A stretch of DNA of 44,425 nucleotides from Candidatus Taylorbacteria bacterium RIFCSPLOWO2_12_FULL_43_20 (GTDB lineage Bacteria > Patescibacteriota > Minisyncoccia > Phycocordibacterales > HO2-43-120), in assembly GCA_001821295.1 (NCBI GenBank), contig MHSK01000031.1, positions 1 through 44,425 on the forward strand, given 5' to 3'. Position numbers and translations under genes: made by a program. The notes beneath the pieces were generated by a model. It was not told the origin of the DNA and made no database searches. It worked only from the letters and a program-made list of their open reading frames with translations. How positions within the stretch are numbered: position 1 is the stretch's first letter; each line of letters begins with the position of its first letter. Below, in pieces: positions 25,303-38,939 of this stretch.

Positions 25303-25742
25303 ATTATTGAAGTGATATAATAAATTTGATAGGTAGGGGGAAATTTCCAATTACCAAGTACCAATTTCCAAACAAATCCTAATTCTCAATTTCCAATTTC
25401 TAATTGAATAGGACTTACGTGTTTGGTGTCATTCCCGCGAAGGCGGGAATCCAGAGTATGCAGATAATATCTTGGATTCCCGCCTTCGCGGGAATGACAG
25501 ATAGGGACTGGTTGGAAAAGGCTAAAATGCACAAGTTCTATAGAAGAAAAAAAGAAGAAGGGAGAAGAAATTTCTCCTTCGAGGTCCTCAGGATGGTGAA
25601 GCAATTGAACCATAATTTCTAATGAGCACCCCATCGCCTCGGAAACCTCCACCTTCGCTAATAAGCTACGGCGGGACACAGTCGGCTCTTCCCCTCTAAA
25701 GAGGGGAAGAGGGAGACAGAGAATATATAAGAAATTGTTTCT
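25303..25742. repeat. Repeat mosaic before pilB
   Basis: AATTTCTAAT-type words (25338-25405), a type 2 miniature element (from 25411), the CTCCTTCGAGGTCC module (25566-25617), CACCCCATCGCCTCGG (25626-25641), and CGGGACACAGTCGG (25672-25685) with CCCCTCTAAAGAGGGG hairpin (25691-25706). No gene. Confidence 0.85.
25411..25536. mobile_element. Type 2 miniature element with 27-bp inverted repeat
   Basis: Starts with GGACTTACG after TA (25409-25410). 25427-25453 and 25473-25499 are perfect 27-bp inverted copies, each containing ATTCCC-N8-GGGAAT, around a 19-nt spacer. The right end is not sharply defined; the position given is approximate. Confidence 0.75.
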
Positions 25743-35590: not shown

Positions 35591-35707
35591 GAACTTACGC
35601 ATTTTCTGTCATTCCCGTGAAAACGGGAATCCAGAGTGCGTAGTAATGCCCTGGATTCCCGCCTTCGCGGGAATGACACCGACCAGAACAAACTTTTGCG
35701 TAAGTCC
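35591..35707. mobile_element. Type 2 miniature element, best complete copy
   Basis: 117 bp with GAACTTACGCA at the left and TGCGTAAGTCC at the right, flanked by TA on both sides (35589-35590 and 35708-35709). Inside are two ATTCCC-N8-GGGAAT hairpins (TGTCATTCCCGTGAAAACGG and the fuller right one), inverted with respect to each other. Confidence 0.85.
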
Positions 35708-35913: not shown

Positions 35914-37635
35914 ATGGATAATTATGAGGTTTCAGAGAGATTGGCGAGCAACGTCGGGGATGAGCTGTCGGTTTATCCCGAGCTGTTAAAAATTTTACTC
36001 TTAAACAGGGGCATAAAAAGCAGGGAGGAAGCGGAAAATTTCTTGCGCCCTGATTATAACAAGCATCTGCACGATCCTTTTCTGTTCAAGGATATGGCGA
36101 AAGCGGTTGATAGAATAATTAAAGCGGTAAACGAAAATGAGAAAATAGTCATCTGGAGCGATTATGACGCGGACGGCATACCAGGAGGTATTATACTCCA
36201 CGACTTTTTTACAAAAATCCAATTTTACAGCTTTGAAATTCATATACCTGACAGAAATAATGAGGGGTTCGGCCTGAACGAAAAAACCATAAACCGTTTA
36301 GCTGACGACGGAGTCTCGCTGATAATTACCGTTGACTGCGGTATTGGCAACGTAACGGAAGTTGACTTGGCCAATAAAAAAGGTATTGACGTCATAATTA
36401 CGGATCATCATATGCCTTCGGAGAAATTGCCGCCGGCTCTCGCCATTATCAACTCCAAGCAAGAAAACTGCGGCTATCCGTTCAAAGATCTTTGCGGAGC
36501 GGGTGTGGCGTTCAAACTGGTCCAAGCGCTTACTGTCCGGATCGGCGCGTCCGAACACTCTTCCAAACTAAACCCGGGGTGGGAAAAATGGCTTTTAGAT
36601 ATGGCGGGTGTGGCCACGATTTCGGACATGGTGCCTCTTCGCGGTGAAAATCGGGCCATTTCATACTATGGTCTTATGGTTTTAAGAAAGACGCCCAGGG
36701 TCGGGCTCGGGCGGCTTTTTCAGGATTTGAAAATTCAGAGGAAACATTTAACTGAAGACGATATAGGTTTTTCAATATCACCCAGGATAAACGTTTCCTC
36801 TCGCATGGGTTCCGCCATGGACGCCTTCCGACTTTTAACGACAAGAGACGAAACGGAAGCCGGAATGCTGTCCTCGGAAATGACAAAACTCAACAATGAA
36901 CGAAAAGGCCTTGTGGCGGCGATGATAAAAGAAATAAAGAATAACCTTGGGAAAGGTGAGAAAAGCCGGCACGATATTATTGTTATGGGCAATCCGACAT
37001 GGAAGCCGTCTCTTTTGGGGTTGGCGGCGAACACGCTGTCTTCTGAATATGAATGTCCCGTTTTTCTTTGGGGAAGAGGATCGGAAGAGGATCTTAAGGG
37101 CTCGTGCAGATCACGAAATACCAACCTGATCGCTCTTATGGGCAATGTCACTCCGGGTGTTCTGGCGGAATTCGGCGGACATTTTTTTTCCGGCGGATTC
37201 AGCGTGCGTCACGATAAGATACATCATTTGGAATCGGAATTGAGAAAATCGCATGAGCTCGTAAAGAACGCCGATGATGCTAAAGAAAAAACCGTAATTG
37301 ACGCGAAGGCTTCGCTGGAAACCGTTTCGTGGGAAAACTGGGAAATGATAAGCCGTCTTGCTCCTTTTGGCATGGGTAATCCGAAACCTGTTTTTTTGTT
37401 CGAAAACATTGAAATTTATAAAATTGAAGAGTTTGGAAAAGAGAAAAACCATATCAAACTTCTTTTCAAAAAAAACAATTCTGAATATGTGACCGCCATA
37501 AGTTTTTTTACGGGAAGAAATAGTTTCAGTCGAGAGCCGAGGGAGGGGGAGAGTATCAATCTTGTTGCCTCAATGGAAAAATCCGTTTTCAGAAACTTTC
37601 CAGAATTACGTTTGCGTATAGTTGACATTATATAA
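35914..37635 (+). CDS. recJ: Single-stranded-DNA-specific exonuclease RecJ
   Basis: 573 residues. DHH-family motifs: WSDYDADGIPG (about 81-91), TVDCGIGN and ITDHHMPS (about 161-168) in the DHH domain; DHHA1 domain with LGLAANTLSSEY and GGHFFSGGFSV. The C-terminal OB domain follows to the end. It degrades single-stranded DNA 5'-3' in recombination and mismatch repair. A TAAGAT box ends 9 nt before the ATG. The 3' end overlaps the TTGACA of a candidate ncRNA promoter (37622-37627). Confidence 0.95.
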   Translation: MDNYEVSERLASNVGDELSVYPELLKILLLNRGIKSREEAENFLRPDYNKHLHDPFLFKDMAKAVDRIIKAVNENEKIVIWSDYDADGIPGGIILHDFFTKIQFYSFEIHIPDRNNEGFGLNEKTINRLADDGVSLIITVDCGIGNVTEVDLANKKGIDVIITDHHMPSEKLPPALAIINSKQENCGYPFKDLCGAGVAFKLVQALTVRIGASEHSSKLNPGWEKWLLDMAGVATISDMVPLRGENRAISYYGLMVLRKTPRVGLGRLFQDLKIQRKHLTEDDIGFSISPRINVSSRMGSAMDAFRLLTTRDETEAGMLSSEMTKLNNERKGLVAAMIKEIKNNLGKGEKSRHDIIVMGNPTWKPSLLGLAANTLSSEYECPVFLWGRGSEEDLKGSCRSRNTNLIALMGNVTPGVLAEFGGHFFSGGFSVRHDKIHHLESELRKSHELVKNADDAKEKTVIDAKASLETVSWENWEMISRLAPFGMGNPKPVFLFENIEIYKIEEFGKEKNHIKLLFKKNNSEYVTAISFFTGRNSFSREPREGESINLVASMEKSVFRNFPELRLRIVDII

Positions 37636-37653
37636 ATAATGCGATATTATAAT
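37622..37653 (+). promoter_or_regulatory. Promoter of the candidate RNA after recJ
   Basis: TTGACA at 37622-37627, overlapping the recJ 3' end, and TATTATAAT at 37645-37653. The spacing is 17 to TATTAT or 20 to TATAAT. It is the best explanation for independent transcription of the gene-free stretch. Confidence 0.6.
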
Positions 37654-37659
37654 ACCAGA

Positions 37660-38077
37660 TTTCCCGCGGTTACACCTGTCCATGAAAGCGCGTTGCGAGC
37701 CCGCCCTAAATAGGGAAACGTGAAGGACAACATATGTCTTGGCTAAACACGGCTTTCTAAAAACAAAACAGGAACTTGTAAAAGCCGACTGGTACTGACT
37801 AGGATTGGTTTACCAATCTTGTCGATAATATCTTGATGCTCATGGCGACTAGGAGTTGTTTTGTCTGCCTGTGCGTTCGGATGCGGCGGATCGTGTCGCG
37901 CGGTGCGTCATCCTAGAGCACCGCTCGGGTCATACAAGAATATGTTACAGGACGCGGGCCGGCGCGCACCTTGAGTGCGCGCCGGCATGAAAAAAGATTT
38001 ACCCGAACAAAAAAGTTTGTGTGTAGTTCGGGTGATAACCCCCTGCCGTGTGGCCGGGGGTTTGTTGTTTGTTTTTT
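37660..38077 (+). ncRNA. Candidate structured RNA of about 400 nt, family unknown
   Basis: No open frame, but strong structure. Outer helix: CCCGCG (37663-37668) and CCTGT (37675-37679) pair with ACAGG (37947-37951) and CGCGGG (37953-37958). Inside: CGGCTTT/AAAGCCG (37758-37792 area), GATTGG-TTTA-CCAATC (37802-37817), GCGGTGC/GCACCGC (37898-37924 area). A 12-bp GC hairpin (37958-37986) and terminator (38037-38077) follow. Size fits RNase P RNA or tmRNA, but their conserved core motifs were not found. Unassigned. Confidence 0.5.
38037..38077 (+). terminator. Intrinsic terminator of the candidate RNA
   Basis: AACCCCC-T-GCC, loop GTGT, GGC-C-GGGGGTT, then TGTTGTTTGTTTTTTT. Strong GC stem and long T tract. 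Confidence 0.9.
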
Positions 38078-38138
38078 TATCAAGGTTTAACCTTGATATT
38101 TTTCCAAAGGTTATGCTGTGCTACTATCCTGACTATGA

Positions 38139-38144
38139 TAAAAT
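38139..38144 (+). promoter_or_regulatory. -10 box of rnhA
   Basis: TAAAAT ending 6 nt before the ATG at 38151; predicts a leaderless mRNA. Confidence 0.5.
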
Positions 38145-38150
38145 TTGACT

Positions 38151-38939
38151 ATGATAAGAATTTATACAGACGGATCATCAAGAGGTAATCCCGGACCGGG
38201 CGGATGGGGCGCCATTGTTTTTTTTGGAGATGAATTTGTGGTGGAGCTTGGGGGTCGCGAGGCGCATACCACGAACAATCGCATGGAATTGACCGCGGCC
38301 GTCTACGCGCTTCGTTTTGTAGAGTCACACGAAAAAAAGCGTGAGGACCAAGGGAATTTTACGCGATCAAATGATTTGAAATCATACCCGATAGATTTGC
38401 GAACAGATTCGCAATATCTTATAAACGGCATTACCAAATGGATATGGGGATGGGAGAAAAATGGCTGGAAAACGGCGGCAAAAGAAAAAGTTTTAAACCA
38501 AGATCTTTGGATGGAGCTGTTTTCGCTCACCCAACAGTTCAAGGTCAATTGGAATTACGTTGCCGGTCATTCCGGTGTTATCGCCAATGAACGATGTGAT
38601 GAGATCGCCACGGCTTTCGCGGACGGCATTAAAGTACCGCTGTATTCAGGCGAACTAAGTAAATATGCTTTGGCTAATATTGCCGGCGGGGAAAATTCGC
38701 GAGGTCAGGAAAAAGATTATAAAAAATCTGATAGAGAGAAAAATAGGAAATATTCATACATCAGTATGGTAGACGGGAAAATAATGGTTCACGACAACTG
38801 GGATGAGTGCGAAAAAAGAGTCAAGGGAGTAAGCGGGGCGAAATACAAAAAAATTTCAAGCGAAACCGAGAAAGCAAGAGTCATGGAAGAGTTTACAGCT
38901 TATCTAAGAGCCCATCTCCAATCTAAGCGTAAAATATGA
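38151..38939 (+). CDS. rnhA: Ribonuclease HI with C-terminal hybrid-binding domain
   Basis: 262 residues. RNase H core (1 to about 160): Asp7 (YTDGS), Glu46 (RMELTAAV), Asp86 (RTDSQYL), His140 and Asp150 (ERCDE) complete the catalytic set. Removes RNA from RNA:DNA hybrids. After a charged linker (about 180-200), YSYISMVDGKIMVHDNWDEC (201-220) followed by KGVSGAKYKKISSETEKARV is the viroplasmin/hybrid-binding fold, which in most RNases H1 is N-terminal. Here it is C-terminal. The ATG at 38151 is preferred over TTG 38145. Confidence 0.93.
   Translation: MIRIYTDGSSRGNPGPGGWGAIVFFGDEFVVELGGREAHTTNNRMELTAAVYALRFVESHEKKREDQGNFTRSNDLKSYPIDLRTDSQYLINGITKWIWGWEKNGWKTAAKEKVLNQDLWMELFSLTQQFKVNWNYVAGHSGVIANERCDEIATAFADGIKVPLYSGELSKYALANIAGGENSRGQEKDYKKSDREKNRKYSYISMVDGKIMVHDNWDECEKRVKGVSGAKYKKISSETEKARVMEEFTAYLRAHLQSKRKI

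Follow-up and report, generated by a model that had tools for sequence, protein, structure and literature searches.

A candidate orphan structured-RNA gene between recJ and rnhA in a Candidatus Taylorbacteria genome

The gap between the DNA-repair genes recJ and rnhA in the genome of Candidatus Taylorbacteria bacterium RIFCSPLOWO2_12_FULL_43_20, an ultra-small bacterium that is uncultured, holds a credible candidate for an orphan structured-RNA gene. We are moderately inclined to regard positions 37657-38079 (+ strand) of the window, i.e., of the whole 44,425-nucleotide stretch of DNA analysed here, as a free-standing non-coding RNA gene, the product of which would be a structured RNA restricted to this lineage, transcribed on its own and acting in trans. 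The computed basis consists of a promoter match, the definedness of the fold, the lack of coding capacity, and the lack of catalogued or detectable relatives; from these, we infer transcription, the transcript ends, action in trans and any function.

Transcription signals and predicted fold

The gap occupies positions 37636-38150 between two genes of the + strand, recJ (single-strand exonuclease, 35914-37635, stop codon 37633-37635) and rnhA (ribonuclease HI, 38151-38939, or starting at 38145 if TTG is used). A sigma-70-type promoter on the + strand (37622-37650), TTGACA (37622-37627) and TATTAT (37645-37650) with a 17-nt spacer, matches 11 of the 12 consensus bases and is the sole promoter-like site detected in 37500-38300; shuffled sequences yield 1.5±1.2 sites at the laxer 9/12 threshold of the scanner. 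The -35 element lies within the last recJ codons, and the promoter overlaps the recJ stop, as the original prediction had proposed. A transcription unit of ~415 nt (37657-38079) is predicted from the promoter, the fold and the T-tract, with the putative start placed ~7 nt past the -10 element and the putative end placed from the T-tract. The predicted terminator also holds up, as does the promoter-to-terminator order: the intrinsic-terminator-like hairpin AACCCCCtGCCgtgtGGCcGGGGGTT with a T-rich tract (38037-38079, + strand) has a stem of AACCCCC/GGGGGTT plus GCC/GGC (38037-38062, pair probability ~0.93-0.99) followed by TTTGTTGTTTGTTTTTTT, and is located ~70 nt upstream of rnhA on the same strand. 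The consensus terminator scanner did not list this hairpin but did list another at 38078-38098, which is really a dispersed palindrome (discussed below). An extended -10 element, TGCTACTAT, which ends at ~38126 just upstream of rnhA, might represent a separate rnhA promoter. There is no ORF longer than 57 aa in the gap, and none of its six-frame conceptual translations produces a Pfam match at E<=1, in agreement with the claim that this region has no reading frame.

The structured core (37658-37960, + strand) comprises 303 nt and 97 predicted pairs, with a mean pair probability of 0.93, and is closed by a long-range helix. Its minimum free energy is -106.6 kcal/mol compared to -90.0±4.9 in dinucleotide shuffles (2 of 300 as low), and its ensemble diversity is 19.0 compared to 73±21 (0 of 300 as low). 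Among 148 segments of the same length on the + strand across the 44 kb, the core has the lowest ensemble diversity but ranks only 22nd by folding-energy z-score, so that definedness, not stability, is its unusual property; by ensemble diversity, the fold is better defined than expected by chance, relative to both the shuffles and the 148 segments.

The predicted architecture includes both elements that had been described for this RNA, a long-range closing helix and at least four internal hairpins. The closing helix P1 pairs CCGCG at 37664-37668 with CGCGG at 37953-37957 (mean pair probability 0.87) and is continued by P2 (CCTGT/ACAGG, 37675-37679/37947-37951, pair probability 0.61) and by the CTTGTA/TACAAG stem of the 3' domain. 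The 5' domain (37684-37757, probabilities 0.93-0.995) consists of a GAAAGC/GCTTTC stem around two hairpins, 37704-37715 and 37724-37740. In the 3' domain (37775-37938, probabilities mostly >0.9), the stem 37775-37788/37925-37938, with CTTGTA/TACAAG (0.97) and CCGA/TCGG, opens a multiloop from which four hairpins branch (37796-37824, 37830-37882, 37883-37899 and 37900-37924). Downstream, a 12-bp GC-rich hairpin without a T tail adjoins P1 (37958-37986, probability 0.99) and is followed by a 10-bp hairpin with a 17-nt loop (37999-38035, probability 0.95). Two functional readings of the core were rejected: the octamer GACTAGGA, which occurs in two hairpins, is not a convincing duplicated protein site because an 8-mer pair in 300 nt is expected by chance, and a CsrA-sponge role finds no backing in the GGA motifs, which show no clear excess and lie mostly inside predicted stems.

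Other structured stretches are present in the window. The segment 6540-6985, downstream of tRNA-Leu, is predicted to be very strongly structured (z -6.4), matches nothing in Rfam, and is possibly another orphan ncRNA. The adjacent segment 6985-7165 is predicted to form a rod-like hairpin of ~137 nt with a 21-bp closing helix (7016-7036/7132-7152) and a T tail (z -9.1); it also has no Rfam match, and in outline it resembles 6S RNA or a long inverted repeat. At 25427-25499 and 35607-35678, the window contains dispersed, palindromic repeats (TGTCATTCCCGCGAAGGCGGGAATCCA type).

Comparison with known RNA families

A search of the whole window with Rfam 15 at the gathering score identifies nothing but three tRNAs, and at E<=10 the gap region gives chance matches only (best E=1.9). 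In particular, the gap RNA has no match to 6S RNA (RF00013), SRP RNA, ROOL, GOLLD or OLE, nor to the intron, HEARO and retron families, and no riboswitch or leader family scores above the gathering threshold in the gap region. The Rfam covariance search that the original prediction had called for reveals no significant match to any known family, and the description of this region as a structured RNA without family assignment, equipped with a promoter and a terminator of its own, is supported.

Two known families had been named as possible homes for a divergent RNA of this size. The gap RNA resembles bacterial RNase P RNA (RF00010) in size class, in the long-range closing helix and in being a free-standing gene, but lacks the conserved core motifs, and shows no match to the RNase P RNA models RF00010 and RF00011 even at E<=10. 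The RNase P RNA of this genome is encoded on another contig (G000:C7:10952-11491), where the canonical motifs GAGGAAAGTCC, ACAGAAttcGGCTTA and ACAGAATTCGGCTTA are present, which refutes the assignment of the gap RNA to this family. That RNA is 540 nt long and, at 51.8 bits, stays below the cut-off of 100; standard Rfam cut-offs have been found to miss diverged RNase P RNA in CPR genomes (PMC8172020). Within this RNase P RNA (L032), a GGGGCAATGAAAGCACGAAAT...TTTCACTGCTCTGCAGTGG segment occurs as two near-repeats, which look like duplicated inserts.

The gap RNA is similar to tmRNA (RF00023) in its size of ~350-400 nt, its free-standing gene and its own terminator. However, searches with ARAGORN and RF00023 detect no tRNA-like 5'/3' ends with a T-loop, no A-rich degradation tag frame is seen in the three forward frames, and SmpB is not found anywhere in the assembly with the SmpB of the congener (G001) as the query, so that the proposal of a divergent tmRNA is not supported. 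The assembly also yields no canonical tmRNA, with weak matches only, the best of which is tRNA-Ala; above the cut-off, tmRNA is detected in 53 of the 60 genomes of the order searched, including the congener. In the latter, smpB-tmRNA lies between dapA and secF, and the secF-recG interval holds ftsH-dapA-smpB-tmRNA (G001:C5, L183). In the genome analysed here, secF is followed after ~0.9 kb by recG on one contig (G000:C15, L219), and this contiguous interval contains neither smpB nor tmRNA. The most economical interpretation is the loss of smpB-tmRNA from the secF-recG locus or its location in an unassembled place elsewhere. These observations suggest the loss of trans-translation in this genome. 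A tmRNA functioning without SmpB is unlikely. A genome whose assembly seems to be without trans-translation, i.e., with neither tmRNA nor SmpB, thus comes to light.

The recJ-rnhA gap and the search for relatives

The RNA core is present in a single copy in the genome and in the window. A blastn search started with the gap against 98 relatives gives cross-genome matches only to 38061-38108, centred on the palindrome and not on the core; for the core itself, the best match among 397 genomes of the order has an E-value of 6e-4 over 28 nt, which is the chance level for that many genomes. The 303-nt core with its predicted fold served as the sole input for a covariance model, which recovers only the core itself in the 397 genomes of the order and 384 genomes of the class (overlapping samples), and gives one chance match (E 1.3) in 82 recJ loci. 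Neither blastn against phage and plasmid collections nor an exact 29-mer scan of viral contigs matches the gap RNA. In total, no relative is detected in ~700 related genomes, including a genome of the same genus, by searches that begin with a coarse screen of the genomes and would overlook highly diverged RNAs. In permutation-tested alignments with 23 other recJ-rnhA gaps, the gap of the congener (L043) gives p=0.3, and another gap, L071, gives p=0.001-0.003 with loose gap penalties and 0.2-0.4 with stricter ones; given this dependence on the penalties and the 23 tests made, the L071 gap is a marginal and unconvincing homologue. The homologues that the original prediction hoped to find in other recJ-rnhA gaps were therefore not recovered by blastn, the covariance model or permutation alignment. 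The lack of conservation in relatives, which was expected to argue against function, weakens the case for a broadly conserved function but not for a lineage-specific one.

The sequence shared with other genomes is a 21-bp palindrome, TATCAAGGTTTAACCTTGATA (type TATCAAGGTTnAACCTTGATA), at 38078-38098, between the ncRNA and rnhA and outside the RNA. The same genome has at least six copies, and the palindrome is present in many families of the order (L010, L011, L013-L016, L018, L020, L024-L030, L129 and L186), with variants that carry matched changes in both arms, TATCGAGGTTTAACCTCGATA in G016 and TATCAAGGTCTGACCTTGATA in G017. L010 carries two copies, which border or overlap a reading frame with an apparent resemblance to a REP-associated (Y1) tyrosine transposase; given this location, the palindrome is best read as a REP/RAYT-like dispersed repeat. 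It recurs without the window RNA and hence is not specific to it.

In 112 distinct recJ 3' flanks, rnhA often follows almost immediately, or a small ORF lies in between; in most relatives, such an RNA is missing at this place, the recJ and rnhA genes being either nearly adjacent or separated by a protein gene. A long stretch without the usual intervening gene is found in a few flanks only (the window, L071, L049, L076, L087 and L086), and L071, L076 and L087 have TTGACA-17-TATANT promoters after recJ, a point in favour of an ncRNA gene in the window. L076 and L087 come from two Candidatus Taylorbacteria MAGs and contain mutually homologous non-coding sequences of ~370 nt (L076:6840-7215 and L087:6865-7270; nhmmer 1e-16 to 2e-21), with a promoter and a terminator and without an Rfam match; a search of 397 genomes with the L087 sequence finds it in its own genome only. 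A normal tmRNA is encoded elsewhere in both genomes, so these sequences are not tmRNAs. They share with the window RNA the gene gap, the TTGACA-17-TATANT promoter, a similar length and a terminator-like 3' hairpin, but no detectable sequence or covariance-model similarity. The L071 gap holds a structured non-coding sequence of ~400 nt (L071:3390-3800) with a TTGACA-17-TATACT promoter, a terminator and a well-defined fold (ensemble diversity 33 vs 98, 0 of 40); no canonical tmRNA scores above the cut-off in its genome. These comparisons hint that, depending on the lineage, the recJ-rnhA locus harbours distinct RNAs or versions of a single RNA that evolves extremely fast. We consider it rather unlikely that the window RNA, L076/L087 and possibly L071 belong to a novel class of large structured RNAs, evolving fast or confined to a lineage, that resides in this gap in the Parcubacteria-type bacteria of the order and whose members have diverged beyond alignment.

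Alternative readings and significance

The absence of a homologue, even in a genome of the same genus, and the only moderately unusual folding energy (22nd of 148) speak against an ncRNA gene and are compatible with non-functional intergenic sequence, e.g., a decayed insertion, that folds by chance, next to a chance promoter and a terminator that ends recJ transcription. The high variability of the recJ-rnhA gap across the order, the 9/12 promoter matches that arise by chance (1.5 expected in the region) and the several other segments with stronger folding-energy z-scores point in the same direction. Such an origin is nevertheless unlikely: an 11/12 promoter, a defined 303-nt fold (0 of 300 shuffles) and a terminator occur together and in the correct order, and no protein trace is apparent in six frames. 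The region could alternatively be a cis-acting 5' leader or attenuator of rnhA, in which read-through of a conditional terminator would express the gene, as the shared strand and the short distance from terminator to rnhA would allow. We consider this quite improbable because the palindrome and the possible rnhA promoter TGCTACTAT intervene between the terminator and rnhA; in addition, the gap is almost nil in many relatives, and no riboswitch or leader model matches above the gathering score.

A highly diverged housekeeping RNA, chiefly tmRNA, would fit the size and would account for the canonical tmRNA that is missing from this assembly yet common in the order. It is very improbable in view of the lack of a tRNA-like domain, tag and SmpB, the RNase P RNA located elsewhere, and the normal tmRNAs of two genomes with other non-coding sequences in this gap (G365 and that of L076). 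A remnant of a mobile-element guide or structural RNA (e.g., omega-RNA, retron or intron) would be in line with the orphan distribution and the REP/RAYT-like palindrome directly downstream; the chance of this appears equally slim, considering that the RNA is single-copy, matches no intron, HEARO or retron family and nothing in phage or plasmid collections, that no adjacent listed ORF resembles a transposase or reverse transcriptase (as judged by eye), and that the palindrome recurs independently of this RNA.

Under the favoured reading, that of a free-standing ncRNA gene, transcription would start from the strong sigma-70-type promoter in the last part of recJ, run for ~415 nt and end at the terminator that precedes rnhA. 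The 5'-most 300 nt would fold into a single compact multibranched structure, closed end to end, with three further hairpins on its 3' side, of which the last is the terminator. Such an RNA would most likely act in trans, as a structural RNA that binds a protein or the ribosome and is specific to this genus-level lineage.

The large orphan structured RNAs OLE, ROOL and GOLLD of bacteria are widespread families, backed by both sequence and covariation, whereas the window RNA has no detected relative and no Rfam match. Oligomeric cryo-EM structures of these three RNAs are reported in one study (PMC12286853). The window RNA is like them in being non-coding and intergenic, with an ornate predicted fold.

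The Candidate Phyla Radiation has, to our knowledge, yielded few described non-coding RNAs. If transcribed, the RNA described here would be an example of a large structured RNA that a ~1-Mb genome has retained, and would offer a case in which to study lineage-specific RNAs of reduced genomes.
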